Positions 664 to 56,458 of a DNA stretch of 64,000 bases are shown here, piece after piece. The position numbers and the translations under genes are program-made. Within the stretch, counting starts at the first letter, position 1. The number at the start of each line of letters is the position of its first letter. A model generated the notes under the pieces. The model saw nothing but the letters and a program-made list of their open reading frames with translations, was not told the origin of the DNA and made no database searches. Source of the stretch: Porpolomopsis calyptriformis (Eukaryota; Basidiomycota; Agaricomycetes; Agaricales; Hygrophoraceae); contig OX621166.1 of NCBI GenBank assembly GCA_951640195.1, positions 922,501-986,500 on the forward strand, in the 5' to 3' direction.

Positions 664-2544
664 TCACCATCGAACAGAAAAAGAAGAATTAGAAGGTCAA
701 GCCCTCCTTCCTCCCAAACATTTCATCAATGCCATCATTTCCATGTCTGAACCCTCTTTCATGTCAAGACTTCATTTCCCCGACTTCAACCAAATCCCAG
801 AGGACATTCGCATCAAATTATCTAATCCCTCTTCTGGCTACTCCTTCACTGATGGAATTGTGAGAGATGCAGGAGATCGTATTGTCGTGCCAGCAGACGT
901 ATCACTACGCACAGAGGTAATTTGATTGACCCACTCCCTACCCCATGGAGGCCATCCCGGAATTGAGAAAACACGTGAGCTTGTGTTGCGGAACTACACC
1001 TAGAGTAGTGCTGCCCCTGATATCCGTGTATTCGTATTATCCTATCTGACCTCCCAACAAGTCAAGCTTTACCCTTCAAAGCCTGCAGGTCTTCTAGAAC
1101 CCACTCCCCCTTCATCTTGACCTTGGGAAGAAATCACCACCAATCTAATCATGGAACTCCCCCAATCATCTAGCTACAATGCTGTCCTAGTCATTGTCGA
1201 TCGCTTTACCAAACGCGCTCACTTTATCCCAACAACTTCAAACATCTCAGCAGAAGGAGTCACAAAGCTCTTCAGGGACAATGTATGGAAACACTACAGT
1301 TGGCCAAAGAAGATCATAACCAATCGAGGAACTTAATTCACTTCCAAATTCACGAAAGCTCTCAACACTCACTTGGGAATCATTTCCGGTCTATCCACCG
1401 CTTATCACCCCCAAACTGATGGTCAAACGGAACGCACCAATCAAGAACTTGAACAATACCTTTGTTTGTATACAAACTTTATGCAAGATGATTGGTCCAA
1501 CTGGCTATCTCTAGCTGAATTTGCGTATAACAACTGACTGTCACGGACACTTTTTTCTTTTTCCCTTTAGTCATACTTGATTAGTCTCCTTTCCGTTCAT
1601 CCTTCCGCTTTACCGTTTTATATATAGAGACTGATCACATGTACCTTCCTTCCGACTCTTCACGAGTCACGTTCCGTTTCCGTTATTCTTTTTGTGACTC
1701 TTCACTAGTCACATTCCGAATTCCGCTTTGTAATCGTACATACGACTGACTCATGGTGACTCAGGTAGTTAGTATATAAAGCCTGACCTCTAGTCAGTAG
1801 GTTAAGTTCGATTCCTAGTTAGCTCCCCCACTCTTTAGTTGAATTCCATTTCCCTCATCAGCCCCTCCAACGCGAGAAGTAAAACCCTTCGACTACCGAA
1901 TCATAACACTGACAACACTCCTTGACGAAATACACTCCTTTCTATCTCGATACTGGTCAACATCCTTTCATCCCATCCATTCCCACAACTTCTACCTCCA
2001 ATCCCGCAGCAGATGCCTTCCATGATCATCTCACAGAAGCCTGTGAAGAAGCCTCAAAAGCTCTAGAAGCAATGGCCGAAACCATGAAACGCTTCGCAGA
2101 TCGCAAACAGAAAGATACCCAACTCCAAATAGGTCAATTTGTTTATCTTGATACACGTAACCTAAAAACAGGTCATCCAACCCTCAAACTCAATGTCCGA
2201 TGCACTGGACCTTTCAAAATTCTAGAAAGAATTGGAAAAGTCTCTTATCACTTGGCCCTTCCCTTATCATAGAAAATTCATAACGTCTTTCACGTATTAC
2301 TCCTGAGACCCACTAATATCAATTCTGATCTCCATCCAGAAGAAGTGGATGATAATCTCTGTCCACCCCCAGATGTTATTCAAGAAAAAGAAGAATATGA
2401 GGTCGAACAAATTCTCCAACATCACAGGTCTACCCGATGTCACGCATATTTAGTCAAATGGGTCGGCTATCCCATCGAGGAAGCGACTTGGGAACCAAAG
2501 AAGAACCTACTCCATGCGAAAGAACGAATTCTAGAATACAAATG
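664..2544 (+). pseudogene. Integrase with C-terminal chromodomain (family A), degraded
   Basis: This encoded the RH-IN spacer, an HHCC zinc finger, the D,D,E catalytic core (RNase H fold strand transferase) and a chromodomain (about 2345-2544, YLVKWVGYPIEEATWE). Stops occur near 923, 1001, 1118 and 1334. The zinc-finger pair CLTC is YLTS here, and both catalytic aspartates read Asn (TTNLI for ADLI; ITNRG for ITDRG). The glutamate in [10 protein letters not shown] is kept. A solo A LTR with a perfect 5-bp duplication splits the core at 1539. It is clearly non-functional. Confidence 0.9.
1539..1908 (+). repeat. Solo LTR of family A
   Basis: 370 bp, TGTCACGG to TCATAACA, flanked by the perfect target duplication CTGAC (1534-1538 and 1909-1913). 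It contains TGACTCA motifs and a TATATAA box. Removing it with one CTGAC copy rejoins the integrase motif EFAYNN to QHSST. Confidence 0.97.
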
Positions 2545-2689: not shown

Positions 2690-3268
2690 ATGCCCACTGA
2701 ACGCTCTCACCAAACTGCCCGCAAATCTACTGGTGGTCGTCCACCCTGTGCTCCTCGCATGTCCACTGGAGGACAACCCCCTCGTCGCGCTCCCCCTCTG
2801 CTTGCTTCCACCTCCTCCACTTATAGTGAAGTTGAGCTCGCTGGACGGCTCTGGCAGCAAGATCACCATGAACAAAATTGGGCCCTCACCATGTGGCCGA
2901 ACAAAATCATCGCACTACCCATCCCACCTGAGCAGATCATCGAATTGTTGAAGAAGGACGTCGATCACTACAAAACCGAGATCGCGAGACTAAACAAGGA
3001 GTTGTACAATCAAGGATTGAGTTTGGATGGGAAGAGAAGAGCAAGTGAATATTGGCAGGAACAGGCCAAATATTGGGAGGCAAAACATGAGGAAGTCGCA
3101 AAGGTACTTCCCCATCTCGATTCCCCTGCTCCCCCTGTTTTCCCAGGTCCGCTCATCATCCCCCCTGGTTCGTCGTCGAACCCCATCGCCATCCCTGATA
3201 ATGACAACATCTCCCTGGCCAACATTATTTCCCTGTCAACCACCATCACTGACAAGGACTTATCTTAG
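2690..3268 (+). CDS. Third ORF of family A with histone H3-tail-like N-terminus
   Basis: A stop-free ORF lies between the chromodomain and the 3' LTR. I chose the ATG at 2690 because it is conserved in the second copy (47902); an in-frame ATG at 2678 exists only here. Residues 8-16 read QTARKSTGG, identical to histone H3 residues 5-13, followed by RPP and a partial repeat RMSTGGQPPRR. After a Ser/Pro/Ala linker comes a predicted coiled coil (about residues 88-140, QIIELLKKDVDHYKTEIARL and onwards), then a proline patch and an acidic Ser/Thr tail. There is no signal peptide or membrane segment, so it is not an envelope. Function is unknown; the H3 mimicry is a direct sequence match and its role is inference. 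Confidence 0.75.
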   Translation: MPTERSHQTARKSTGGRPPCAPRMSTGGQPPRRAPPLLASTSSTYSEVELAGRLWQQDHHEQNWALTMWPNKIIALPIPPEQIIELLKKDVDHYKTEIARLNKELYNQGLSLDGKRRASEYWQEQAKYWEAKHEEVAKVLPHLDSPAPPVFPGPLIIPPGSSSNPIAIPDNDNISLANIISLSTTITDKDLS

Positions 3269-3344: not shown

Positions 3345-3921
3345 TGTCATGGATACCTTTTTCCTTTTTCTTTCAGTCATACTTGATTAGTCTTTGTTCC
3401 ATTTATCCTTCTGCTTTACCACTTTATATATAGAGACTAGTCACATGCACCTTCTTTCCAACTGTTAAGAATTGCACTGGGAACGTACGCTTCTTGGCAA
3501 CGACTCAGACCACTGAGCCAAAATGTCGCAGAACTGGACTTACCCAGTTCGGTTGTTCCCAGTATATATATCAAGTTACACGTGACTGGCTGGAATCTGC
3601 TCGACGTGCATGAGAGACGGCTACAGGCGCGCTCGATCTCGTGTCTCGAATTTCAGATCCGTGACACCAACTCTTCACAAGTCACATTCCGTTTCCGTTA
3701 TTCTTTTCGTAACTCTTCACTAGTCACATTCCGTATTCCGCTTTGTAATCGTCCATACGACTGACTCATGCTGACTCAGGTAATTAGTATATAAGGCCTG
3801 ATCTCTAGTCAGTAGGTTAAGTTCGATTCCTAGTTAGCTCCCCCATTCTTTAGTCAAATTCATATTCCTCATCAGCCCCTCCAATGCGAGAAGTAAAACC
3901 TTCAACTACCGAAACATAACA
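3345..3921 (+). repeat. 3' LTR of the left family A element
   Basis: It begins TGTCATGG directly after a purine-rich stretch (about 3331-3344) and ends GAAACATAACA. Without the nested 204-bp insertion and its duplication it is 368 bp, matching other family A LTRs. It contains the TATA box and the AAGTTCGATTC segment complementary to the family's primer site. Confidence 0.92.
3463..3666. repeat. Short solo LTR-like insertion (family K)
   Basis: 204 bp starting TGTTAAGAATTG and ending CCGTGACA, flanked by perfect CCAAC duplications (3458-3462 and 3667-3671). TG...CA ends with TGTTA/TGACA near-inverted termini fit an LTR. There is no second copy in the window, so orientation and parent family are unknown. 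It could also be a small TRIM-like remnant. Confidence 0.8.
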
Positions 3922-21800: not shown

Positions 21801-24800
21801 GAATATTCAAAGGAACCTCACCTCAAGCCGCTCCCTTCTTCCTAAGCAAGAAAGCTGAAGAAATCAATGCGAAAGGACAAGACGCTGGATACAGACCAAT
21901 CGAAGACTACCGTTATCTGAATCACTTTACCGTTCCTGACCGATACCCTTTACCACTTCTCCATCAAATCGTTCAGCAACCCAAATTACGATCTGCTGTG
22001 TTATTCACAGTCGTGGATATCCGATGGGGATTTAACAACATTCGGATCAAAGAAGGCGACGAATGGAAAGCTGCTTTCAACACGGTCAAGGGACTCTATG
22101 TTCCAAGAGTGATGTTCTTTGGTCTACGGAATTCTCCAGCTACGTTCCAACAGATGATCGACACGCGATTTGCAGAAGTGTTAAAATCAGGTTGTGTCTT
22201 TATCTATATCGATGACGTTCTCATCTGCGGAGATGATCTAGAAGAATTACATTACTGGACGTTCAAGACCCTTGATGTCATGAAGAAGAACAAGCTCTCC
22301 TGCAAACCCGTCAAGTGCCAATTCGAGAAAGAAGAGGTGATCTATCTAGGGATGACCTTAACGAAAGGTCATATCGGAACCAATCCCAAGAAGGTCAAAG
22401 CCATTGCCGAATGGCCTGAGCCTCGAACCGTCAAACAACTCCAATCCTTTCTCGGAAGCGCAAATTTCTGGAGAAAATATATCAAGGACTTCTCGAAGAT
22501 CGCCCAACCACTCAACCAGTTACTCCGCAAAGATACTATATGGGAATGGACCTCCAAATGACAACACGCCTTTGATCAGTTGAAACACTCCCTCACGAAT
22601 GCCCCTGTCCTTGAAATACTGGATCAAGACCTACCATACTGCCTAGAGACTGACGCCTCTGGTTTTGCCTTAGGAGGAATACTGTCTCAGCTACACGAAG
22701 GCGAATGGAAACCCGTAGGCTTTCATTCAAGATCTTTAACCCCTGCTGAAAAGAAATATCTGACTCACGACGCTGAGCTTCTGGCAATAATAGACTGTCT
22801 TAAAGCATGGCGACATCTTTTGGAAGGTTCGCGACACGACCTTCTGATTCATACCGACAGTCTCGCCCTCAAATATTTCAGTACTGCTCGTGTATTGTTT
22901 GGACGACGTGCTCGTTGGTCAGAAATCTTATCAAGATACGAGTATAAAATCGGGTACGTCCCAGGGAGAAAGAACAAGGCCGATGGGTTATCCAGGCGCC
23001 CGGATTATTTCGACGAGGGTAAAGGCGAGGTGGAAGACGAAATTTTGATCGCAGATGAACATTGGATCAATTCGATCGTCAAACTTTCAGAACCGGACTT
23101 TCTCGCAAAATTACGCTTCAAGCTACCAATACTGAACAAGATCTCACAGAGAATTGAGGATGCCTCACTGTTTTGGGACCAAGCCGATGGGTTGGTTCGC
23201 GATGTTGAAGGTCGAATTGTGGTGCCGGAGGAAGTATCTCTGCGCACAGACATAATACGACTGTCCCACACCTGCCCCCACGCTGGACACCCTGGCATTG
23301 AGAAGACGAAGGAGCTAGTGCTCCGAAACTTTGTTTGGGATGGCGTCTCTCAAGACGTTATCAACTACGTACGATCCTGTCCTGCTTGTCAACAAAACAA
23401 GAACTATCCTTCGAAGCCGACAGGACTCCTACAACCTATACCCCCCGCTACCGAACCATGGACTGAGATAACCGTCAATCTCATTGTTCAACTACCTGAC
23501 TCGCTTGGATACGACGCCGTGATGGTAGTCGTCGATCGTTTCACAAAACGAGCCCACTTTATTCCGACGACTTCTAATCTCTCATCAGAAGGCGCTGCCC
23601 GACTTTTCCGTGATCATATCTGGAAACACCATGGATGGCCGAAGAAGATTATTTCTGATTGTGGAGTTCAGTTCGCATCAAAATTCACTGAAGCCCTCAA
23701 TAAACTCCTAGGAACCATTTCTGGACTGTCTACCGCTTATCATCCCGAGACCGATGGTCAGACTGAACGAACGAACCAAGAACTCGAAGTCTACCTATGG
23801 TTCTATACCAATTTCATGCAAGACGACTGGTCCGAATGGCTGGCTTCTGCCAAATTCGCTTACAATAATCGACAACACTCCTCCACATCACAATCACCCT
23901 TCTATTTGGAATATGGCCGTCACCCTCATTTACCGATCACAATCAAATCCCCGAGTAATGTCCCCGCAGCAAACACCTTTCACGAACGTCTCACGCGTGC
24001 TCAGAAGAGTGCCGGCGAATCACTTTCACATGCCGCAGAATCAATGAAGAAATATGCCGATCGAAAACGGAAACTCTCTCCCTCCTTCAAAGTCGGAGAT
24101 TTGGTTTGGTTGGACACCAAGAACATCAAGACGACTTGACCTGCCAAGAAACTAGATAACCGAAGAACTGGACCATTCAAGATCCTGAAACAAGTATCAG
24201 ATCTTGCGTATCTCATCAACATCCCCGGAACTTGGAAACTCCACCCAGTTTTTCACGTATCACTCCTAAGACCAAATGTCGAAGATAAGTTGCTCCACCC
24301 TGATATTACTGATACATCTCGACCTCCACCAGATCTGATTGAGAACGAAGAAGAATACGAAGTTGAATCTATTCTTCAACACTCCGGAGTTCAACGCCGA
24401 CGAAAATACTTGGTCAAATGGAAAGGTTATCCGATCGAAGAAGCTACTTGGGAAGAACGATCGAATGTCTTACGACACGCTAAAGAAATTGTGAAGACTT
24501 ACGAAGACTCAATTCAAACGGCGACTTGACTTGTTTGTCATCATTCCAGCTGTCCATTTTTGAATTCTATTTTTAGGTCGAGTAGGCGTTTATAAACTCA
24601 GAATCGTCGATACGATTCCATCCAGTCTTTCCCCACTTTTGATGAACCAACCCAATACTGTTGTTCCAACGCCAACATCACTGAATCATCGTTCATAATG
24701 CCCGCCACTCGATCTCCCTCTCCTCAAGTTGCCATCAGACATGCTGGACGAATCCCCTCGTCTGCTGCCATCCGTTCCCCTACCCCCGGTCCCTCCACCT

Positions 24801-26592
24801 CTTCTTCCTCCACTCGACAATTACGCTGACAAGCTCGCGCACGTGCAGAGGACTTCTTCAAAGAGTACCCTATGGAAACCCCTCCTCCTGAAGATCCTGC
24901 TGTCACTATTTCGCGTCTCACGGTCCACAGCAATAGTGTTAGCAACTGGAACCGAGAACTTCGACAAGAACGCGACATCTTGAAAGCCGAGCTCAAAGCA
25001 TCGGAGAGGAGTGCCCTATATTGGAAGAACCGCTGGGACGAAAGTGAGCTCAAAGTTTGGGAGCTCCAACGATAGAAGAAGCGTACATGGGTCGATTGCT
25101 ACGACGTCACCACCCGCGCCATCATCGTCAAGCTCGTAGAGGAGAGTCGTCGAGCTGAACGGCTCTCTCGAGAGGATTTCCTCCAAGCTCAACAAGACCT
25201 TGCGACGACAGAAACTATAATTGACTACGGTGCGTCAGTCGAGTACCCCATCAACCTCAACTTAGAATACCCGGACGACGACGACGACGTCAAGACAGTC
25301 CGAGCCCCTTCCCCCATCGAAGTGGCTTCGGAAGCTATTCCCATTGCTTCCCTCTCAGTGGTCATCGAGGCCCCCACTGGTGAGGAAATCCAGACTCAGG
25401 GCCCAGAGGACGAAACGACCGACACCACCCAGGTTTGAAATTCGGGTCGAATTTCCCGAAAAACGAGGTGTATGTCACGGATGTAAATTTTCATTTCTTC
25501 TTTATGTTAGTCATTACTGCTTAGTCGGACAGGTCTTATCTCTACTTGGGATTCCCCAGGGATTCCCCATAATTCCGTATCTTTTCATATATCCGAGATA
25601 GGACATACTTCATTTCCGACAATCATGTTTCATCTCTTCACATGCTCCGAGTCCTCCTTATCATGCTTATCTTTACTCGTCGCATGTACTCCTCGTGTTT
25701 ATACTGACTCATCCGCAGTAGTGTAGTTAGTATATAAACTCCTAGTTAGTCGTACTCAGACTTTAAGTCTGATTCCTCGTTAGCAACCCAATAACTAGGA
25801 CTTGAGACATTATCATCGTCTTGGGACAGAGCTCTCCGAAGTAAAACTATCTCATCGACAACCAGTTTATAACAGCGCATGAGCAACTGTGCATGTATGC
25901 GCATCTCCCTACTGCTTTTTTAGCTACCTCCCCCATACATGTGCATAAACAACCGCATGTGCATGCGCATCCTCCTACCACTCCTGCCTTCCCCTCCAAT
26001 GTATCTCAGCCTGCGCACATCGAACCTGGCCAATCTTCTGCTTTGCGTGTGCTAATGCTTTTACTCCTGGGAGCCCTGCGGATGCGCATGAGCGACCGTA
26101 CTTCCTCTGCTGCATGTGCTAATGCTTTTACTCCTGGGAGCCCTGCGGATGCGCATGAGCGACCGTGCATGTATGTGCACCCTCCTACCACTCATGCCTT
26201 CCCCTCCAGTGTATCCCAGCCTGCGCACATCGAACCTGGCCAATCTTCCGCTACTTCCTCTGCTGCATGTGCTAATGCTTTTACTCCTGGGAGCCCCACG
26301 GATGCGCATGAGCGACCGTGCGTGTATGCGCGCCCTCCTACCACTCCTGCCTTCCCCTCCAGTGTATCTCAACCTGCGTGCATCAAATCCAGTCAACTTG
26401 CAGCTACCTCCCCTGCTGCCTGTGCTAACGCTTTCACTCCTGGAGGTCCTGTGCATGCGCATGAGCAACCGAGTGTGTATGCGCATCCTCCTACTCCTCC
26501 TGGCTTCCCCCTTAATGCATCTCAGCCTGTGTTCATCAGATCCAAGCAACTCATGCTTCCATCCTCTACCACCCCTCCCTTTACACATACCG
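18883..26592 (+). CDS. N-terminal tandem-repeat domain of element J (interrupted by element B)
   Basis: From the first in-frame ATG, about seven repeat units occur, typified by MHAHEQPCMYAHPPTAFAA; later units carry an added FPSSVSQPAHIEPGQSSA and ACANAFTPG segment. The B element splits it after 19025, and the frame is restored at 25880. The repeats replace the Gag and protease expected here and run without stops into RT. One unit contains a 65-bp tandem duplication that is briefly out of frame with the repeat. Function is unknown; His/Cys/Met content would allow metal binding, but that is speculation. Confidence 0.6.
19026..19427 (+). repeat. 5' LTR of family B
   Basis: TGTCACAGACG to TTTATAACA. 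It contains two adjacent GGGATTCCCC motifs (19101-19110, 19112-19121), TGACTCA (19258-19264) and TATATAA (19284-19290). Confidence 0.95.
19258..19439 (+). promoter_or_regulatory. Core promoter and self-priming site of element B
   Basis: TGACTCA, TATATAA (19284), AAGTCTGATTC (19318-19328) and, two bases after the LTR, GAATCAGACTT (19429-19439), its exact complement. Confidence 0.65.
19500..20996 (+). pseudogene. Gag (family B), one premature TGA
   Basis: Structural capsid protein. The first ATG is at 19791 (MGSRANPPVPNLNEI), but the same frame is open upstream to about 19470 through an acidic then Pro-rich stretch, so the true start is uncertain. The capsid domain covers roughly 20010-20500 (EFTGRQQDVDKFINSCELYF). 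A CCHC knuckle (CYSCGQPGHFANAC) is near 20677. A TGA at 20772 precedes an RGG-rich tract (FRGRGGYRGRGRG). The frame ends at QGF-TGA (20994-20996), the frameshift site. The internal TGA most likely derives from CGA. Confidence 0.85.
20987..20996 (+). promoter_or_regulatory. Putative -1 ribosomal frameshift site (G GGU UUU)
   Basis: In the gag frame the sequence is CAG GGT TTT TGA. Slipping back one base on G-GGT-TTT enters the pol frame, which is open towards protease apart from a TGA at 21038. The same heptamer closes gag in elements D and G. Confidence 0.65.
20993..24529 (+). pseudogene. Pol polyprotein (protease, RT, RNase H, integrase, chromodomain) of element B
   Basis: A single frame without indels, broken only by TGA codons at 21038, 22559 and 24137. 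Protease LVDSGASGNF (about 21160). RT palm VVDIRWGFNN and YIDDVLICGDD (about 22205). RNase H LETDASGFALGG to KNKADGLSRRPD (22620-23010). Integrase HHCC finger (about 23270-23395) and core; the first Asp is Asn (TVNLIVQLP), while IISDCG and [10 protein letters not shown] are intact. Chromodomain at 24340-24480 (YLVKWKGYPIEEATWE). The TGA at 22559 is also present in the minus-strand B copy. Confidence 0.93.
24698..25438 (+). pseudogene. Third ORF of family B
   Basis: ATG at 24698 (MPATRSPSPQVAIR) to TGA at 25436, after the chromodomain and just before the 3' LTR. A Ser/Pro-rich N-terminus is followed by a coiled coil (NWNRELRQERDILKAELKAS), a segment ALYWKNRWDESELKVWEL resembling the YW...E.KYEEV region of the family A third ORF, and an acidic tail. 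Premature TGA (near 24827) and TAG (25073) stops are at CGA and CAG positions of the minus-strand copy. No membrane segment. Function unknown. Confidence 0.65.
25473..25874 (+). repeat. 3' LTR of family B
   Basis: 402 bp, preceded by the purine-rich AACGAGGTGTA. Four of the five differences from the 5' LTR are at CpG. Confidence 0.95.
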
Positions 26593-30060: not shown

Positions 30061-30433
30061 TGTTAGGATTACCATTTCCATCCATTTCCACTCTTTTCCC
30101 TTATTAGGACTTATCTGTCTTACTACGTCTCAGACCTATCTGTCTCGTAATGACTTACTATGTCTTAGACTTATGATAGCTTACCATGTCTTATACATGT
30201 CTCAGGACTGATCACCCTAGACATTCTGACACAGTCACATACATGTGACTACCCCTAATTATCCATTACTATATAAGACTAGTAGCTACCCCTGTATCCG
30301 TAGTTTTCGACTTACTCGTCTGCATACCTGAACTTGGTATTGCAACAGCTTTCGTACTCATCCATTCGTTATCCCTGTCAATGAGTTCATCCTTAGTCAG
30401 GCCTCGAGACCCGAACAAGCTCAGGTCCTGACA
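30061..30433 (+). repeat. 3' LTR of family J
   Basis: 373 bp, TGTTAGGATTACC to GGTCCTGACA, followed by the GTCAT duplication and the resumed Tc1 transposase. Confidence 0.95.
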
Positions 30434-31453
30434 GTCATCCACTATCACAAATTGCTGCCGACATAAACCGCCCACTATGCACCATACAAGCAATAGTCAA
30501 GAGGGGACGGGAACAAGGCAATCACAAAAATGTGCCCAGGCCTGGTAGACCCCCCTTAATCAATGACAGAACACTCCAGCACCTCAATCATAATATCCAT
30601 CGTAACCGACACCAAACTCTTCAGGACATCACCCACTCGATCAACCTTGCCCTACCATCTCCTGTTGCACCACGGACCATCAGGAGGGCACTGAAGACTC
30701 ACCTCAACATGTCCTCACATGTGGCAGCCAAGAAGCTATTCCTAAATGCAAAACACCGCAAAGTACGGAGGTTGTGGGCAAAGGAGCATATTGGGTGGGG
30801 GATGACGGACTGGGAGAGGGTTGTATGGACAGATGAGGCATCAGTAGAGATTGGGAAGCAGTCAAGCGCCATCTTAGTATGGCGTAGACCAGGTGAGAGG
30901 TATAATGAGGATTGTTTGGCCCCGACATTCAAGTCTGGCCGACAGACCCTCATGATATGGGCTTGCATTGCATATGGACGACATGGCCCACTTGTGCTGA
31001 TTCCTTCAGATAAGTGCAAGGGTGTGGATTATGTCAATCAGGTCCTTGCAGGTCCACTGTGGGATTTTTATGCTAGGCTCTATGATGAGATGGGTGCCAC
31101 ATTGGTCATAGAGGATGGAGCATCAGTCCACAGGTGCAAATTGGCCAAACAGTTCTGTGTTCAGAATGGAATGGAGAGCCTTCCCCACCCTCCTCAGTCA
31201 CCTGACCTCAACCCTATCGAGCATGTGTGGACACACCTCAAAATTGCGATCAATCAATGTTAGAATCATCCTCAGACTGCAAATGACCTCTGGTTAGCAA
31301 TTCGGGAGGAGTGGGACAAAATTGGCATTGACTTCATCAATACACTCATAGAATCCATCCCCAAACGTGTTGCGGCAGTCCACAAAGTGAGAGGAGGGGC
31401 CACGAAGTACTAGTGTATTGTTTTGCGAAGTCACTGTGTTACGGGAAATCGCT

Positions 31454-42255: not shown

Positions 42256-42624
42256 TGTCACAGACGCTTTTTTCCTTTTTCTTTTTAGTCATACTTGATT
42301 AGTCTCCATTCCGTTCATCCTTCCGCTTTACCGCTTTATATATAGAGACTGACCACATGTACCTTCCTTCCAACTCTTCACAAGTCACATTCCGTTTCCG
42401 CTATTCTTTCTGTGACTCTTCACAAGTCACATTCCGTATTCTGCTTTGTAATCGTCTATACGACTGACTCATGCCGACTCAGGTAGTTAGTATATAAAGC
42501 CTGATCTCCAGTCAGTAGGTTAAGTTCGATTCCTAGTTAGCTCCCCCACTCTTTAGTCGAATTCATATTCCTTATCAGCCCCTCCAATGCGAGAAGTAAA
42601 ACCTCCGACTACCGAATCATAACA
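42256..42624 (+). repeat. 5' LTR of family A
   Basis: TGTCACAGACG to ATCATAACA, with two GACTC-TTCAC-(G/A)AGTC-type palindromic repeats, TGACTCA (42465-42471) and TATATAA (42491). Confidence 0.95.
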
Positions 42625-42636
42625 AGAATCGAACTT
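42465..42636 (+). promoter_or_regulatory. Core promoter and self-priming site of element A
   Basis: TGACTCA, TATATAA (42491-42497), AAGTTCGATTC (42522-42532) and its exact complement GAATCGAACTT (42626-42636) one base inside the LTR end. Confidence 0.65.
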
Positions 42637-44217
42637 CCTTCTTGCGCACCAAACCACTTCCACTCTGGATCCTGCTGAAGACTTAACAAGGTCAATCTTT
42701 TCATCTGCGGATTCAGATACTCCCTTTCAACCCATAGTATTCCAAACCCCTGCACAATCCATCATCCCCCTTTCCCCCTCATCATCATCGCTAACATCAA
42801 TGTCTCAAACATCTCAACAAGAGTATGAAGCCGATCAAACCGTTCCCGCACTGGGACCCAGCAACATTCCCCCCACCATTCAAGAAGAAGAAGATGTCAT
42901 CCCATTTAACATGGAACAAGAGCTCAAAGATCTGAGAGCACAAATCGACCAGTTCCGTGGCTGGTATTATAATGAGGTCGACGCCAATGATGAACTTTGT
43001 AAAGAGCTAAAAGCCCTCAAAGAAGGTCGACAAGAAGAATTTGAACTAGCCACCCCTCCCCTACAACGACAATCTATGCTTCGGGGACCTGGGCTTTCCC
43101 CATCAAACCCTTTTGTTTACGCCCCAAGAAGAACTCAGTCTGTCCAACCATCCTTTCCCACTAACCCTCAACCAACTACCCAAATAACTGCTCCCCTATA
43201 CTTCCTGCCCCTACCAAAATCAAAATTGCCGATCCGACCAAATACGATGGAACCCCTGAGAAGCTAGAGGACTTCATTCACCAATGTCAACTCAACTTTG
43301 TGGTTAAAGACTACAACGACAAACAGAAAGTCATCTATACGCTCTCCTATCTTGGTGACGGCAACCCACGGGCTTGGGGATGACTGTTTACGGAAATGGT
43401 TGATGGAACGAGGAACTACGTATGGAACTACGCAACATTTTTGGATGAATTTCGAGAAGCATTTGGAAGGATCAACCCAGCAGCGAAAGCACGGATCGAG
43501 CTAGAAAAAGTAAAGATGACAGGAACGATAGAAGACTACAACCTTCGGTTCATGCAGCACGCGACAAGAACTGAGTACAACGAGGCCGCCCTTCTTCGGT
43601 TTTACAAAGCCGGACTCCCCCAGCCAATCTTTCCACGGATTTACTCGATGGATAATATACCGTCAACTTTGCTGGATTGGATGACGAAAGCGGCCCAATT
43701 CGAAGAACAGTACCAGGAACAACGAGCCGAACAAGCATTGTGGTCAAGTCGAGATCAAAAAGGAAAGAAGTCCGAAGCCAAATTGAATCCCCGAGGAAAC
43801 CCTTCCCACTCCACCACCACTACTTCATCCCCGATTAAACAAGAATTGAGAGAAGCCTCTCTCAAAACTGCAAAACGAGACAACTCCTCCATTACTTGCT
43901 ACAACTGTGGCAAAAAAGGACACTACGCCAACGAATGTTGAAGCCCACGCGCTGAAGACGTTCCAGCACATCAAGAGACCTCAACTTCTACTCGAGGAAA
44001 AGGAGGAAATCGCGGTCAAGGTAAAGGACAAAATGTCTGAACGATCAATCGGGTCAACACAGAAGAATCGGAAGCGCGGATCGAAGAAGTACCGGAGGAC
44101 GACGAGAAAGAGAAAAGGACGGCAAAGGATGACCTGAAGGATATGGGAATCACGAATTGGGACAAGGAGAGACGGGCTGCGCTAGCTCGAGCATTAAAAG
44201 AGCAAAAGGATTTTTAG
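42637..44217 (+). pseudogene. Gag of the complete family A element
   Basis: The frame is open from the primer site (SNFLLAHQTT ... LDPAEDL), with a first ATG at 42800 (MSQTSQQEYEADQ). A coiled coil (MEQELKDLRAQIDQF), a one-base frameshift near 43200, TGA at 43381, then the capsid C-terminus (43396-43941) with CCHC knuckle CYNCGKKGHYANEC, TGA at 43939, a Lys/Glu tail and the end NWDKERRAALARALKEQKDF, TAG at 44215. The TGA after AWG (43381) is shared with the second A copy (52622). Confidence 0.85.
44208..44217 (+). promoter_or_regulatory. Candidate frameshift site of family A (altered heptamer)
   Basis: AAG GAT TTT TAG in the gag frame, G-GAT-TTT where other families have G-GGT-TTT. Pol is still in the -1 frame, open directly from this site. 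A G-to-A change probably weakened the site. Confidence 0.45.
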
Positions 44218-47200
44218 TCTGGCCAAGTGCTAAAAGCCCGAGCACTTTGGCTGTGTCCCATGTATGTGTACCACCATCTATGAAAAGTTTTCATTTTCTT
44301 GGCACACTTGAACAGGGCAAAGGCGCTCTCAAATTCTATCTTTGGATCACAAGTGCCGACAATCTTCGACGAGTGGCTATCATAGCACTCATTGACTCTG
44401 GCGCCTCAGGGAATTTTATTGACGAAGTGTTCGTTCGTCAAATGGAGATATCGACCTATCCGTTAGATGAGGTTGTACCGGTACGAAACGCTGATGGTTC
44501 TGAGAACCGAGGAGGTCCCATCACACACGACACAGACCTGTTTATTGAGGCACCAGATCTATCTTTTCGAGAATGAATACGGTTGGAGGTCACCAACTTA
44601 GGAAGAAAACAACAGGTCATCCTCGGCTTCCCATGGCTCTTGCGACACAACCCCACCATCAATTGGACAAAAGGCACCTTAACCTTTGCGTCTGGTGACA
44701 CGCTGTTCAGTGGTATGCGAGTCGGAGTGTTGCCCCCACAGGAAGAACTCTACGTCTTTGATTCGAGTCTGAAACATGACTCCTTTATCCGCTTGGTTGG
44801 AGTTGACCACTCCCGACCAGTTTCCATCGAGGAGGACATCAAATCCTTTATTCCTAGTCGTTACCACAATTTCTGGCGTGTTTTCCATACCGCAGAATTC
44901 AACAAACTTCCTCCTCGACGTCCCTTTGATCATGCGATCAACCTCTACCCGAACACCAAATTTCAAGTCGGAAAACTCTATCCCCTTTCCCCCTATGAAC
45001 AGGTGGAACTTAATAAGTTTATTGATGAAAATCTCAGAACAGGTCGGATACGCCCATTGAAATCGCCACAAGCTGCTCCTTTCTTCTTTGCGAAAAAGGC
45101 TGAAGAGATCAATGCCAAAGGTCTCAGTGCTGGTCTACGTCCCATCCAGGACTATCGCTATATCAACTCAAAGACCATTCCTGATCGTTACCTCCTTCCC
45201 CTTTTGTCAGAAATCCTCCAAGTACCGAAGCTTGCCACTGCTTCACTCTTCACCGTTATCAATATTCGATGGGGATTTAACAACATACGACTCAAGAAAG
45301 GTGACGAATGGAAAGCGGCTTTTATCACCAATTGAGGACTCTTTGAACCGACCGTTATGTTCTTTGGACTACAAAATTCCCCAGCATCTTTTCAACGAAT
45401 GATAGACATTCTCTTCAAACCCATTTTGGACTCTGGCTGTGTCCACATTTACATTGACAACATTCTCATCATGGGCGACACCCCCGAAGAAATTCGCCAC
45501 TGGACCGATGAAACACTCAAACTCATGGAGAAAAACCAATTGTCCGCTAAACCCGTCAAATGTCAAATGGAGAGGACCTCTGTTACCTATCTTGGTACAA
45601 TCATCAGCAAGGGTCAACTCGCTATCAATCCAAAAAAGGTGGATGCCATTGTTAATTGGCCAACACCCCAAAAACTGCGAGATCTCCAATCCTTCCTTGG
45701 CACTACCAACTTTTGGCGCCATTATATCAAAAGCTTCTCCTCAGTCATTCATCCCCTCTGTGGCCTTTTACGAAAAGACCAACCTTGGGATTGGTCTCCT
45801 TTGTGTCAAAAAGCCTTTGGACAACTCAAACATCTCGTCACTACAGCCCCTGTCCTTCTTACCCCATGGCCAGACCTTCCTTACCTCTTGGAGACTGATG
45901 CCTCTGATTTCGGTATTAGCATGGTCTTATCTCAAAAACACGACAATGGTTGGCACCCTGTTGGCTTTTTCTCAAAGTCCTTACTCCCTGCCGAGTACAA
46001 CTATCCTACTCATGATCTGGAGATGCTTGCAATTGTCACCTCCCTCAAGTATTGGTGCTATCTTTTAGAGGGCGCAAGGGATACTGTATTGATAAAAACG
46101 GACAATTTAGCGCTCAAATATTTCATGCAGAACAGATCCCTCTCCAGACGACAAGCACGTTGGATGGAATTCTTAGGCAGATTCGACTTCAAAATCGAGT
46201 ATTCCCCTGGAGTCAAGAACAAAGCCGATGGACTCTCTCGCCGACCCGATCACCGTCATACAGAGAAAGAAGAATTAGAAGGCCAAGCCCTCCTCCCTCC
46301 CAAACGTTTTATCAATGCTATCATTTCCATGTCCGAACCCTCTTTCATGTCAAGACTTCGCTTCCCCAACTTCGATCAAATCCCAGAGGACATTCGCATC
46401 AAACTATCCAATCCCTCTTCTGGCTACTCCTTCACTGACGGGATTGTGAGAGATGCAGGAGATCGTATTGTCATGCCAGCAGACGTATCGCTACGCACAG
46501 AGATAATTCAATTGACCCACTCCCTACCCCATGGAGGCCATCCTGGAATTGAGAAGACACATGAGCTTGTGTTGTGGAACTACACCTGGAGTAGTGCTGC
46601 CCCTGACATCCGTGTATTTGTATCATCCTGTCTAACCTGCCAACAAGTCAAGCTTTATCCTTCAAAGCCTGCAGGTCTCCTGGAACCCATTGCCCCTTCG
46701 TCTCGACCTTGGGAAGAAATCACCGCCGATCTAATCGTGGAACTCCCCCAATCATCAGGCTACGATGCTGTCTTGGTCGTTGTCGATCGCTTTACTAAAC
46801 GTGCTCACTTCATCCTGACGACTTCGAATATTTCAGCAGAAGGAGTCGCAAAACTCTTTAGGGACAACATATGGAAACACCACGGCTAGCCAAAGAAGAT
46901 CATAACCGATCGAGGAACTCAATTTGCTTCCAAATTCGCAAAAGCTCTCAACACTCATTTGGGAATCATCTCCGGTCTATCCACCGCTTATCATCCCCAA
47001 ACCGATGGTCAAATGGAACGTACCAATCAAGAACTTGAACAATACCTTCGTTTATATACCAATTTTATGCAAGACGATTGGTCCAACTGGCTATCCCCAG
47101 CTGAATTCGCGTATAATAACCGACAACACTCCTCGACAAAACACACTCCCTTTTACCTTGATACTGGCCAACATCCCTTCGTCCCATCTATTCCTGTGAC

Positions 47201-47777
47201 CCCTACTCCCAACCCCACAGCAGATGCCTTTCACGATCATCTCACAGAAGCCCGTGAAGAAGCTACAAAAGCTCTAGAAACAACAGCCGAAACCATGAAA
47301 CGCTTCACAGATCGCAAATGGAAAGATACCCAACTCCAAATAGGTCAATTTGTTTATCTTGATACCTGTAACTTAAAAACAGGTCATCCAACCCTCAAAC
47401 TTGATGTCTGATGCACTGGGCCATTCAAAGTTCTAGAAAGAATTGGAAAAGTCTCTTATCGCCTAGCCCTTCCCTTATCATGGAAAATACATGACATCTT
47501 TCACATTTCACTCCTGAGACCCGCTAACATTAACTCCAATCTCCACCCAGAGGAAGTAGATGATAATCTCCGCCCACCTCTGGATGTCATTCAAGAGAAA
47601 GAAGAATATGAGGTCGAACAAATTCTCCAACACCATGGGTCTACCCGACGTCATACATATTTGATCAAATGGGTCGGCTATCCCATTGCAGAAGCAACTT
47701 GGGAGCCAAAGAAGAATCTCATCCATGTGAAAGAACGAATTCTAGAATACGAACAATCAATTCAAACGGTGACTTAA
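44214..47777 (+). pseudogene. Pol polyprotein of the complete family A element
   Basis: One frame without indels. Protease LIDSGASGNFIDE (44390). RT palm reads VINIRWGFNN and YIDNILIMGD: two catalytic aspartates are Asn, so RT is dead. RNase H LETDASDFGIS to KNKADGLSRRPD (45890-46245). Integrase HHCC intact, TADLIVELP, IITDRGTQF, and DGQMERTNQ with the Glu kept. Chromodomain 47600-47740. Stops: TGA 44574, TGA 45333, TAG 46887 (Trp codon), TGA 47409; natural end TAA 47775. Confidence 0.93.
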
Positions 47778-47901
47778 TCATTCTTTCACAGTATCAACTC
47801 CCCTCGTTTATATTTTTTACCTTTGTCACCTTTTCCAAACTCCGACTCATCCTTATAATCTCTTTCATCTCCATCTTTCACTCTCAAAAATCGACATCGC
47901 T

Positions 47902-48480
47902 ATGCCCGCAGAATGCTCTCACCAAACTGCCCACAAGTCTACTGGTGGTCGTCCACCCCGAGCTCCCCGTATGTCCACTGGAGGACAACCCCCTCGTCGC
48001 GCTCTCCCTCCGCTTGCTTCCACCTCCTCCGCCTACAGTGAAGCTGAGCTCACCGGACAACTCTGGCAACACAATCAACGCGCACGTAATCGGGACCTTC
48101 CCATATGGCCAGAGGAAATCGTCGCACCACCCATCCCACCTGAGCAGATCATCAAGTTGTTGAAGAAGGATGTCGAATACTACAAGAGCGAAATCGCGAG
48201 ATTGAACGAAGAGTTGTATAATCAAGGAATGAGCTTGGACGGAAAGAGAAGAGCGAGCGAATATTGGCGAGAACAGGCTAAGCATTGGGAGGCGAAATAC
48301 GAGGAAGTCGCAAAGGTACTTCCCCATCTCGATTCCCCTGCTCCCCCTGTTTTCCCAGGTCCACTCATTGTTCCCCCCAGTTCGTCGTTGAACCCCATCA
48401 CCATCCACGATGACGACATTCCTTCCCCGGCTGACATTATTTCCCTGTCGACTGCCGTCTCCGACAAGGACTTATTCTAG
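47902..48480 (+). CDS. Third ORF of family A with histone H3-tail-like N-terminus (second copy)
   Basis: 192 codons, intact, 124 bp after the chromodomain stop and 80 bp before the 3' LTR. Residues 8-16 read QTAHKSTGG (H3 5-13 with R8 changed to H by a CGC-to-CAC transition), then RPPRAPRMSTGGQPPRR. Coiled coil at about residues 84-140 (KKDVEYYKSEIARLNEEL, YWREQAKHWEAKYEEV), proline-rich linker, acidic end (IHDDDIPSPADI). It stays open in both copies while pol in the same elements has accumulated stops. No hydrophobic segment. Role unknown. Confidence 0.78.
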   Translation: MPAECSHQTAHKSTGGRPPRAPRMSTGGQPPRRALPPLASTSSAYSEAELTGQLWQHNQRARNRDLPIWPEEIVAPPIPPEQIIKLLKKDVEYYKSEIARLNEELYNQGMSLDGKRRASEYWREQAKHWEAKYEEVAKVLPHLDSPAPPVFPGPLIVPPSSSLNPITIHDDDIPSPADIISLSTAVSDKDLF

Positions 48481-48560
48481 TCCTTCCCCTCCTCCGCACC
48501 CATCAACACCCTCAAAACCGCCTTGAATTTCGGGACGAAATTCCTTTTGATGTGGGTGTA

Positions 48561-48929
48561 TGTCACAGACACTTTTTTCCTTTTTCTTTTTAGTCATACT
48601 TGATTAGTCTCCATTCTGTTCATCCTTCCGCTTTACCGCTTTATATATAGAGACTGACCACATGTACCTTCCTTCCAACTCTTCACGAGTCACATTCCGT
48701 TTCCACTATTCTTTCTGTGACTCTTTACAAGTCACATTCCGTATTCTGCTTTGTAATCGTCCATACGACTGACTCATGCCAACTCAGGTAGTTAGTATAT
48801 AAAGCCTGATCTCCAGTTAGTAGGTTAAGTTCGATTCCTAGTTAGCTCCCCCACTCTTTAGTTGAATTCATATTCCTTATCAGCCCCTCCAACGCGAGAA
48901 GTAAAACCTCCGACTACCGAATCATAACA
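48561..48929 (+). repeat. 3' LTR of the complete family A element
   Basis: 369 bp, preceded by the purine-rich GATGTGGGTGTA and followed by the GAATC duplication. Confidence 0.95.
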
Positions 48930-49258
48930 GAATCCATATTACAACATTCCGGAGCTAAACGACGCCGAAAATACTTGGTCAAATGGAAAGGCTATCTGAT
49001 TGAGGAAGCCACTTGGGAAGATCGATCGAACATTTTACGACATGCCAAGGAAATTGTGAAGACATATGAAGACTCAATTCAAACGGTGACCTGATTCTAT
49101 TCATTCGTTTGTCATCATCCCGTCTGCCAAGAATTGACCTCTATTTTTAGAACCACTCCTTATAAACTGAGAGACATCTCCACTTTCCTTCACGACTCAA
49201 TAACCTTGTTGCAACAACTTAAACCACTAAATCAAAATGTTACAACAACTTCATCCAT

Positions 49259-53185: not shown

Positions 53186-53926
53186 AACCTGGGTGGTGTC
53201 GGTCATTTCATCCTCTGGGCCCTGAGTCTGGATTTCCTCGCCAGTGGGGGCCTCGATGACCACTGAGAGGGAAGCGATGGGGATAGCTTCTGGAGCCGCT
53301 TCGATGGGGGAAGGGGCTCGGATTGTTTTGATGTCGTCGTCGTCGTCCGGGTATTCCAAGTCGAGGTTGATGGGGTACTCGACTGACGCACCGTAGTTGA
53401 TTATGGTTTCCGTTGTCGCAAGATCCTGTTGAGTGCGAAGGAAATCTTCTCGGGAGAGTCGTTCAGCTTGACGACTCTCTTCTACGAGCTTGACGATGAT
53501 GGCGCGGGTGGTGACGTCGTAATAATCGACCCATGTACGCTTCTTCTGTCATTGGAGCTCCCAAACTTTGAGCTCACTTTCGTCCCAGCGGTTCTTCCAA
53601 TATAAGGCGCTCTTCTCCGATGCTTTGAGCTCGGCTTTCAAAACATCACGTTCTTGTCGAAGTTCTCGGTTCCAGTTGCTGACGCTATTGCTGTGAACCG
53701 TGAGACATGAAATGGTGATGGCAGGGTCTTCAGGAGGAGGGGTTTCCGTAGGGTACTCCTTGAAAAAGTCCTCTGCACGTGCGCGAGCTTGTCGGCATAG
53801 TTGTTGAGTGGAAGAAGAAGAGGTGGAGGGACCGGGGGTAGGGGAACGGATGGCGGCGGACGAGGGGATTCGTCCAGTGCGTCTGATGGCAACTTGAGGA
53901 GAGGGAGATCGAGTGGCGGGCATTAT
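53186..53926 (-). pseudogene. Third ORF of the minus-strand B element
   Basis: MPATRSPSPQVAIRRTG start near 53926, coiled coil NWNRELRQERDVLKAELKAS, ALYWKNRWDESELKVWEL, a single TGA (from CGA) at about 53549, then the same frame runs on to an acidic tail DEMTDTTQV. Otherwise undamaged. Confidence 0.68.
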
Positions 53927-54104
53927 GAATGATGATTCAGCGAAGTTGATGTTGGGAACAACAGTATTGGGTAGGTTCGTCAAAGTGGGGAAAGACTGGA
54001 TGGAATCGTATCGACGATTCTGAGTTTATAAATGCCTACTCAATCTAAAAATGGAATTCAAAAATGGACAGCTGGAATGATGACAAACGAGTCAAGTCAC
54101 CGTT

Positions 54105-56458
54105 TGAATTGAGTCTTCGTAAGTCTTCACAATTTCTTTAGCGTGTCGTAAGATGTTCGATCGTTCTTCCCACGTAGCTTCTTCAATCGGATAACCTTTC
54201 CATTTAACCAAATATCTTCGTCAGCGTCGAGCTCCGGAGTGTTGAAGAATAGATTCAACTTCATATTCTTCTTCATTCTCGATCAGATCTGGTGGAGGTC
54301 GAGATGTATCAGTAATATCAGGGTGGAGCAACTTATCTTCGACGTTTGGTCTCAGGAGTGATACGTGAAAAACTGGATGGAGTTTCCAAGTTCCGGGGAT
54401 ATCGATAAGATATGCAAGATCTGATATTTGTTTCAGGATCTTGAATGGTCCAGTTCTTCGGTTATCCAATTTCTTGGCAGGTCGAGTCGTCTTGATGTTC
54501 TTGGTATCTAACCAAACCAAGTCTCCGATTTTGAAGGAGGGAGAGAGTTTCCGTTTTCGATCGGCATATTTCTTCATTGATTCTGCGGCGTGTGAAAGTG
54601 ATTCGCTGGCACTCTTCTGAGCACGCGTGAGACGTTCGTGAAAGGTGTTTGCTGCGGGGACATTACTCGGGGATTCGATTGTGATCGGCAAATGAGGGTG
54701 ACGGCCATATTCTAAATAGAAGGGTGATTGTGATGTGGAGGAGTGTTGTCGGTTATTGTAAGCGAATTCGGCAGAAGCCAGCCATTCGGACCAGTCGTCT
54801 TGCATGAAATTGGTATAGAACCGTAGGTAGACTTCAAGTTCTTGGTTCGTTCGTTCGGTCTGACCATCGGTTTCGGGATGATAAGCAGTAGACAGTCCAG
54901 AAATGGTTCCTAGGAGTTTATTGAGGGCTTCAGTGAATTTCGACGCGAACTGAACTCCACGATCAGAAATAATCTTCTTTGGCCATCCATGGTGTTTCCA
55001 GATATGATCACGGAAGAGTCGGGCAGCGCCTTCTGATGAGAGATTGGAAGTCGTCGGAATAAAGTGGGCTCATTTTGTGAAACGATCGACGACTACCATC
55101 ACGGCGTCATATCCAAGTGAGTCAGGTAGTTGAACAATGAGATCGACAGTTATCTCAGTCCATGGTTCGGTAGCGGGGGGTATAGGTTGTAGGAGTCCTG
55201 TCGGCTTCGAAGGATAATTCTTGTTTTGTTGACAAGCAGGACAGGATCGTACGTAGTTAATAACATCTTGAGAGACGCCATCCCAAACAAAGTTTCGGAG
55301 CACCAGCTCCTTCGTCTTCTCAATGCCAGGGTGTCCAGCATGGGGGTAGGCGTGGGACAGTCGTATTATGTTTGTGCGCAAAGATACTTCCTCCGGCACC
55401 ACAATTCGACCTTCAACATCGCGAACCAACCCATCGGCTTGGTCCCAAAACAGTGAGGCATCCTCGATTTTCTGTGAGATCTTGTTCGGTATTGGTAGCT
55501 TGAAGCGTAATCTTGCGAAAAAGTCCGGTTCTGAAAGTTTGACGATCGAATTGATCCAATGTTCATCTGCGATTAAAATCTCGTCATCCACCTCACTTTT
55601 ACCCTCGTCGAAATAATCCGGGCGCCTGGATAACCCATCGGCCTTGTTCTTTCTCCCTGGGACGTACTCGATTTTATACTCGTATCCTGATAAGATCTCT
55701 GACCAACGAGCACGTCGTCCAAACAATACGCGAGCTGTACTGAAATACTTGAGGGCGAGACTGTCGGTACGAATCAGAAGGTCATGTCGTGAGCCTTCCA
55801 AAAGATGTCGCCATGCTTTAAGACAGTCTATTATTGCCAGAAGTTCAGCGTCGTGAGTTGGATATTTCTTTTCAGCAGGGGTTAAAGATCTTGAATGAAA
55901 GCCTACGGGTTTCCATTCATTTTCATGTAGCTGAGACAGTATTCCTCCTAAGGCAAAACCAGAGGCGTCAGTCTCTAGGCAGTATGGTAGGTCTTGATCC
56001 GGTACTTCGAGGACAGGGGCATTTGTGAGGGAGTGTTTCAACTGATCAAAGGCGTGTTGTCATTTAGAGGTCCATTCCCATATGGTATCTTTGCGGAGTA
56101 ATTGGTTGAGTGGTTGGGCGATCTTTGAGAAGTCCTTGATATATTTTCTCCAGAAATTTGCGCTTCTGAGAAAGGATTGGAGTTGCTTGACGGTTCGAGG
56201 TTCGGGCCATTCGGCAATGGCTTTGACCTTCTTGGGATTGGTTCCGATATGACCTTTCATTAAGGTCATCCCTAGATAGATTACCTCTTCTTTCTCGAAT
56301 TGGCATTTAATGGGTTTGCAGGAGAGCTTGTTCTTCTTCATGATATCAAGGGTTTTGAACGTCCAGTAATGCAATTCTTCTAGATCATCTCCGCAGATGA
56401 GAATGTCATCGATATAGATAAAAACACAACCTGATTTTAACACTTCAGCAAATTGCGT
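54105..56458 (-). pseudogene. Pol (RT part, RNase H, integrase, chromodomain) of the minus-strand B element
   Basis: Minus strand: RT YIDDILICGDD (about 56420), TGA after WEWTSK at 56057-56059 (same position as in the plus-strand copy), RNase H LETDASGFALGG, integrase TVDLIVQLP with the Asp intact, TGA at 55067-55069 (FTK then AHF), [22 protein letters not shown] module and chromodomain to about 54105. Damage is limited to TGA-type stops. Confidence 0.92.

Follow-up and report, generated by a model that had tools for sequence, protein, structure and literature searches.

The stretch analysed here, hereafter the window, spans 64,000 nucleotides of the Porpolomopsis calyptriformis genome. At positions 2711-2737 of its forward strand lie nine codons (CAA ACT GCC CGC AAA TCT ACT GGT GGT) that encode QTARKSTGG, and codon reading bore out the original prediction that this peptide is identical to residues 5-13 of histone H3, a mimic of the tail around K9. 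The peptide forms residues 8-16, counted from the ATG at 2690, of an open reading frame on the same strand (ORF3, 2690-3268; alternative ATG at 2678, stop codon at 3266-3268) in which a predicted disordered N-terminal tail carrying the mimic is followed by a predicted coiled coil. In this ORF3 the nonapeptide continues directly into RPP, which places a Pro at the H3 P16 position as predicted; this Pro is kept in 92 of 92 copies of ORF3. The next residue is Cys in the copy at 2690-3268, and an Arg after the PP (compare KAPR in H3) occurs in 59/92 copies. Beyond residue 13, the likeness to H3 is limited to PR. The second, weaker unit that had been proposed was also found, as PRMSTGGQPPRR at 2753-2788 of the forward strand; it resembles a 12-residue repeat of the first unit in which K9, K14, and A7 are replaced by Met, Gln, and Pro, respectively.

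ORF3 had been placed behind an integrase chromodomain, and this position held: a C-terminal chromodomain at 2396-2545 of the forward strand (PF00385, E 1e-13), with its cage residues Y, W, and Y present, ends at a TGA at 2543-2545 and is separated from ORF3 by a spacer of ~130-145 nt. The element copy holding 2711-2737 is itself broken: its integrase frame is interrupted, a solo LTR (about 1539-1908, forward strand) lies within the integrase region, and the 3' LTR (3345-3921, forward strand) contains an insert at about 3464-3666, both LTRs being delimited by self-BLAST. The ORF3 of this copy is open. Self-BLAST also delimited a second copy of the same family, referred to as family A, at 42269-48930 of the forward strand, which has both LTRs (5' at about 42269-42624, 3' at about 48521-48930) and broken frames. 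All of its coding pieces lie on the forward strand: a gag piece with a CCHC zinc knuckle (43384-43938; PF00098), reverse transcriptase, RNase H, and integrase zinc-binding pieces (45336-46886; PF00078, PF17919, PF17917, PF17921), an SH3_Tf2-1-like integrase C-terminus with a chromodomain (47412-47774; PF24626, PF00385 at E 6e-13, and HP1 matches), and ORF3 (47902-48477). The mimic in this ORF3 reads QTAHKSTGG; R8 has been lost at a CpG and K9 is kept. A Pfam scan detected no protease in this broken copy. With two LTRs, a CCHC gag, the order reverse transcriptase-RNase H-integrase, and a group I chromodomain, family A is a Ty3/gypsy chromovirus. Elsewhere in the window, 30397-31260 holds an open frame of 288 residues that, by eye, we take to be a Tc1/mariner-type transposase.

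The family A integrase chromodomain aligns with that of HP1 (1KNA/1KNE) and contains the group I cage Y24/W45/Y48. Among 54 chromodomain-like matches, a few of which come from other families, the cage residues Y, W, and Y were kept in 45; the first residue lay outside the match in six of the others, and a stop stood at the W position in three.

AlphaFold models of the two window ORF3 sequences had a mean pLDDT of 53.9. Residues 1-45 were modelled as unstructured at low confidence, followed by three helices (47-65, 80-107, and 112-143), of which the second and third had pLDDT of ~70-83. Membership in the histone H3 family was ruled out: a Pfam scan of ORF3 found no family, and the low-confidence model has coiled-coil-type helices and no histone fold. 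An accessory ORF of a different retroelement (locus L009, 5657-6184) resembles the coil at 32% identity across 88 columns and has no visible mimic. Within the second unit, the Met is kept in 91/94 aligned copies, A7 is Pro, and R8 is often His. The M24 codon has undergone 2 steps against an ORF mean of 2.2 and so is not specially conserved, and in the L009 subfamily the unit has decayed and lost its GG.

To count the mimic across the genome, we searched 33.5 Mb with a degenerate DNA pattern for QTARKSTGG. This yielded 70 exact matches, against none for the reversed control, which rules out a chance origin of the peptide. The 70 comprise 67 family A ORF3 copies, dispersed over contigs C1-C14, and three H3 genes (L025, L048, and L049), in each of which, by eye, an intron apparently falls inside the G13 codon. 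A search independent of the peptide, using only the coiled-coil part of ORF3 as the query, returned 125 rows, of which 107 were family A at ~102 places and 18 represented another ORF at 30-34% identity; all 67 copies with the exact peptide were recovered. We aligned 94 family A copies. By the pattern search, the eight further places outside the alignment do not have the exact peptide, so that its exact share is 67 of ~102 places. Counts over 92 copies leave out the truncated second copy at L022 and the partial copy at L101, which have no usable N-terminus.

The original prediction had considered that most genomic copies might lack the peptide; this is not so, as 67 of the 92 copies with an N-terminus have the exact nonapeptide and 91 have K9. 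T6, S10, and T11, like P16, are each kept in all 92. Losses of the exact mimic were mainly R8 to His or Cys (at a CpG), G12 to Ser (partly at CpG), and G13 to Ser (not at CpG), with G12 and G13 each turned to Ser in seven copies. We compared CpG classes and Arg codons in 88 well-covered copies. From the least to the most CpG-decayed class, the exact peptide was present in 45/52, 20/26, and 2/10 copies, and K9 was kept in 88/88. R8 was lost in 16 of the 88, near the low end of the 15 to 36 losses seen at other CpG-containing Arg codons, indicating that decaying copies hardly protect R8. Copies also differ in the ratio of observed to expected CpG in ORF3, which spans 0.18 to 1.15 (for example, L094-L097 versus L044, L060, and L069), and this graded decay could serve to rank copies by age.

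We then asked how the codons of the mimic have changed, counting amino-acid and synonymous steps by parsimony on a tree of the 92 copies; unless stated otherwise, CpG changes were masked among both kinds of step. H3 residues 5-11 (QTARKST) are the stretch contacted by writers and readers of K9. For this core we counted 4 amino-acid and 38 synonymous steps, compared with 423 and 556 over the remaining codons of ORF3 (p 4e-6; rank 4 of 186 windows along the ORF). Without masking, the counts were 21/52 against 1004/944 (p 0.0002; rank 18). Because the core was set apart after the codon table had been seen and steps are not fully independent, these and the following p values serve as guides. All nine codons together gave 14/38 against 413/556 for the rest (p 0.03; rank 43 of 184 windows), rank 58 without masking, and 14/53 (p 0.1) when synonymous CpG changes were left in. 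The contrast for the nonapeptide is weak because its Gly-Gly end varies, the Gly12 and Gly13 codons having 5 amino-acid steps each. Relative to neutral expectation, the amino-acid/synonymous ratio was 0.16 for the nonapeptide, 0.05 for H3 5-11, and 0.29 for the rest of ORF3 (unmasked, 0.27, 0.17, and 0.42, respectively), and so the peptide codons are not neutral, the other outcome that the original prediction had named as counting against it. Synonymous steps were frequent at individual codons of the core, with 11 at T6, 15 at K9, 12 at S10, and 7 at T11. The H3 5-11 core is thus under strong constraint, and the contrast for the full nonapeptide is weak. The codon record indicates that the likeness to H3K9 is selected as protein sequence, strongly for H3 5-11 and weakly for the Gly-Gly end.

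The whole frame, too, bears marks of selection: ORF3 is a real third gene of the element and is selectively maintained. In a comparison of 90 copies, the number of indels (per 100 nt and pair of copies) was 0.12 in the first 420 nt of ORF3 and 3.11 in the preceding 130 nt, at an equal level of substitution (16.5 and 16.8, respectively), and 50 of the 67 mimic-bearing ORF3 copies are open to their normal stop.

A relaxed ARKSTG pattern gave 125 genome matches, against 14 for the reversed control, and revealed a second chromovirus family, family B, for which a 20-base pattern had 49 exact matches (reversed control, 0). The ORF3 of family B has ARKSTGRRPPR at the same place as the family A mimic. 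In all three family B loci that we read (L103, L104, and L106; G000:C1:2362700-2364300 and C1:3155500-3156200), the layout is a chromodomain, a stop, a spacer, and an ORF that begins with MPRQVLYARKSTGRRPPR or MPREVRYARKSTGRRPPR; a further stop lies downstream in two of these three ORF3s. With the pattern anchored outside the peptide there were 65 matching places, against 14 for the reversed control, 64 of which were family B by eye, and the Lys codon was AAG in 64/64. As this codon shows not even a silent change, it says little about selection there; family B is little diverged at this site and so adds recurrence rather than a test of selection. An ORF3 body common to families A and B was considered and rejected (BLASTP E 0.25, hhalign probability 0.1%), with the open second piece of one family B copy used for the comparison.

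The window also holds a third chromovirus, family C, at 24369-25190 and 53552-54253. Its ORF3, of which a piece lies behind the chromodomain at 53552-53923 of the reverse strand, starts MPATRSPSP and contains a coiled-coil-like stretch by eye; comparison revealed no visible H3 mimic in the window copies. The ORF3 bodies of families A and C may be related (BLASTP E 0.011, hhalign probability 22%). Since the family C ORF3 has no visible mimic, the mimic is a feature of some ORF3s and not of chromoviruses at large.

At L009 (1-6184), a family A piece running from the chromodomain to ORF3 seems, by eye, to be embedded in a different retroelement, which has a coiled-coil ORF of its own 1.6-1.8 kb beyond the piece. 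Six places have such spacing, and those besides L009 are C2:2687052/2688816, C4:419867/418226, C5:732678/731038, C9:1164957/1163317, and C11:520735/522522. This suggests that the family A piece has been amplified as a passenger of another retroelement.

To look for related proteins, we searched with a profile built from ten ORF3s, accepting E up to 10. This returned 11 proteins, only two of them below 1e-3, and we therefore do not claim homology to the whole of ORF3; two of the three protein searches gave no match. Eight proteins of 147-223 residues have two to four H3-like tails each. They include hypothetical proteins of Armillaria luteobubalina (P0007), A. solidipes (P0010), Hohenbuehelia grisea (P0011), and Daedalea quercina (P0012), along with P0002, P0003, P0005, and P0006, from jgi or lgn sources. 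From these we tabulated 26 units, picked by overall likeness with at least 6 of 13 positions matching; the table excludes a degenerate unit of P0011 that has Arg at K9, as well as the H3-like P0004 (three tails), P0008, and P0009. P0008 itself has four H3-like tails followed by QLATR-type residues, and one of its units has Met at K9. Across the table, A7, R8, K9, T11, and G12 were constant in 26/26 units, S10 was Ser in 22, Thr in three, and Gly in one, and 23 units had Arg or His at K14. Overall identity between the two Armillaria proteins is 66%, and all three of their QTARKSTGG units are identical. A Pfam scan of seven of the multi-copy proteins (all but P0005) found no domain. For P0006, no relative was found in viral_contigs, and its only matches in the host genome were at E 0.24 or worse, 18 of 19 of these apparently being family A copies.

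We consider it probable that the N-terminal arm of ORF3 is a functional mimic of the H3K9 tail that is methylated by a SUV39-type enzyme, occupies readers of the mark, and acts as a decoy. The exact peptide, the conservation of the ORF, the constraint on H3 5-11, the chromodomain cage, the predicted disorder and helices, a Pre-SET match in the host, the recurrence of the mimic in family B, and the constancy of K9 in the 26 units of other proteins together favour this reading. In the proposed mechanism, the disordered arm would enter the active site of the host methyltransferase and be methylated as H3K9 is; the methylated arm would then occupy HP1-type chromodomains, and possibly also the element's own integrase chromodomain, and ORF3, as a soluble, probably dimeric protein without K14, a residue through whose modification K9 methylation is controlled on genuine H3, would draw writer and readers off the chromatin of the element. 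Expression of ORF3, its methylation, binding, and dimerisation, and an anti-silencing effect are what we infer in this scheme. The host genome gave one Pre-SET match in an intron-blind search, which may have missed others, and six DNA methylase matches; together with the graded CpG decay of the elements, the latter are consistent with methylation of element DNA. There is precedent for parts of the mechanism: TrAP has been described as an inhibitor of an H3K9 methyltransferase (PMC4606454) and H3K9M as trapping Clr4 (PMC5030085). Several considerations weigh against this reading. Ubiquitination of H3K14 stimulates Clr4 over 250-fold (PMC8443253), and with K14 missing, a Clr4-type enzyme dependent on this mark should methylate the arm less well; a decoy would also need high expression of ORF3. 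The weak contrast over the full nonapeptide, the slight protection of R8, the ordinary rate of change of the Met unit and its decay in the L009 subfamily, and the lack of a visible mimic in family C count on the same side.

Another possible target for a methylated arm is the element's own integrase chromodomain, in which case ORF3 would serve as an adaptor for integration or as a cap that comes off once target heterochromatin is reached. ORF3 follows the chromodomain ORF directly in families A and B, the Y/W/Y cage is kept, and the chromodomain of MAGGY binds H3K9me2/3 (PMC3350952), but in family C, which also has a chromodomain, no mimic was visible in ORF3, and the seven multi-copy mimic proteins that were scanned have no Pfam domain; we think this role fairly unlikely. 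The same two observations indicate that the peptide may serve the host K9 pathway too, so that its use may lie there and not only with the element's own integrase. The main alternative to a decoy is a tether, in which the methylated arm would recruit HP1 to particles or loci bound by ORF3 and so help the element reach heterochromatin or limit its copy number. HP1 chromodomains grip H3 5-10, a stretch that the peptide spans, and the predicted coiled coil could give multivalency. Yet the element copies are dispersed over contigs C1-C14, and sequence does not distinguish a tether from a decoy; we regard a tether as unlikely.

The remaining readings do not centre on recognition of K9. The peptide could be a site for another enzyme of the H3 tail, such as an S10 or T11 kinase, with K9 incidental. 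Kinases prefer R-K-S; in ORF3, S10, T11, and P16 vary no more than K9 does (92/92), and T11 is constant in the 26 units of other proteins. S10, however, is replaced by Thr or Gly in four of those units while K9 is present in all of them, and Q5, T6, and A7, which readers of K9 need, are largely kept as well, making a kinase site quite improbable. Least probable, and in our judgement very much so, is that the peptide is a relic without function, left by the capture of an H3 exon, or that the likeness is one of nucleotide motif and not of protein. Exact identity does end near the end of H3 exon 1, given the intron seen by eye in the G13 codon, over a stretch of 26 bases some copies of the element match an H3 gene at all but 1-2 positions, and constraint on the nine codons is not much above that on the rest of ORF3. 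Against this, synonymous sites vary while the amino acids of H3 5-11 hardly do, and the H3 likeness past residue 13 is limited to PR.

The decoy reading can be extended, tentatively, beyond one genome. It is conceivable, though on balance doubtful, that mushroom-type fungi and the retrotransposons they harbour have in common a class of soluble H3K9-tail mimics from which K14 has been dropped, comprising ORF3 proteins of two or more chromovirus families in this genome and the proteins with two to four tails elsewhere, as weapons in a decoy arms race over heterochromatin, with the Met unit of family A acting as a K9M-type trap. A fake tail without K14 would compete for the H3K9 methyltransferase and HP1 and escape K14-dependent control.

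Transposons are among the main targets of silencing by H3K9 methylation in many eukaryotes, and, to our knowledge, few elements counter silencing at this step. A substrate copy encoded by an element, beside a chromodomain of the H3K9me-binding type, would allow a direct test of anti-silencing by substrate mimicry. The mimic would also be a natural probe of which parts of the H3 tail matter, with K9 kept and K14 dropped, and it recurs in two element families and in proteins of other fungi. In the open-access literature (titles and the starts of abstracts, with most subscription papers lying outside), we found no report of a retrotransposon or fungal protein with such a tail. H3K9 mimicry in cell proteins, the inhibition of an H3K9 methyltransferase by a viral protein, and trapping by H3K9M are known already; what appears to be new is a putative H3K9 tail mimic encoded by a retrotransposon.

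Among known elements, family A most resembles the chromoviruses whose chromodomains belong to group I (MAGGY of Magnaporthe and the Tcn1 clade), with which it shares the Ty3/gypsy order of reverse transcriptase, RNase H, and integrase and a chromodomain with a Y/W/Y cage; it differs in having a third ORF with an H3K9 mimic, which the accessible text on those elements does not mention (PMC3350952). The geminivirus protein TrAP parallels our proposal for ORF3 as a mobile or viral protein aimed at a host H3K9 methyltransferase. TrAP inhibits KYP, and no copy of a histone tail is mentioned in the accessible part of that paper (PMC4606454), whereas the targeting by ORF3 is proposed from sequence. 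With H3K9M, a Clr4-trapping substitution (PMC5030085), the second unit of ORF3 shares the Met at the K9 position, but it differs in the Pro at A7, the frequent His at R8, and its decay in one subfamily. The multi-copy H3-tail proteins have the same QTARKSTGG(R/H)xP units, with K14 mostly Arg or His; they differ from ORF3 in having two to four units each and are known from protein sequences alone. Other histone mimics are known from viruses and cells. Influenza NS1 carries an H3-like tail. Non-histone targets of EHMT2/G9a provide examples of H3K9 mimicry in cell proteins (PMC10611923), and in these proteins, as in NS1 and ORF3, a short linear copy of the H3 tail sits in an otherwise unrelated protein. 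Compared with these mimics, ORF3 is borne by a retrotransposon, matches H3 over a longer stretch (QTARKSTGG plus PxR) than the ARKS motif, has a core under measured constraint, and carries its mimic in two element families.
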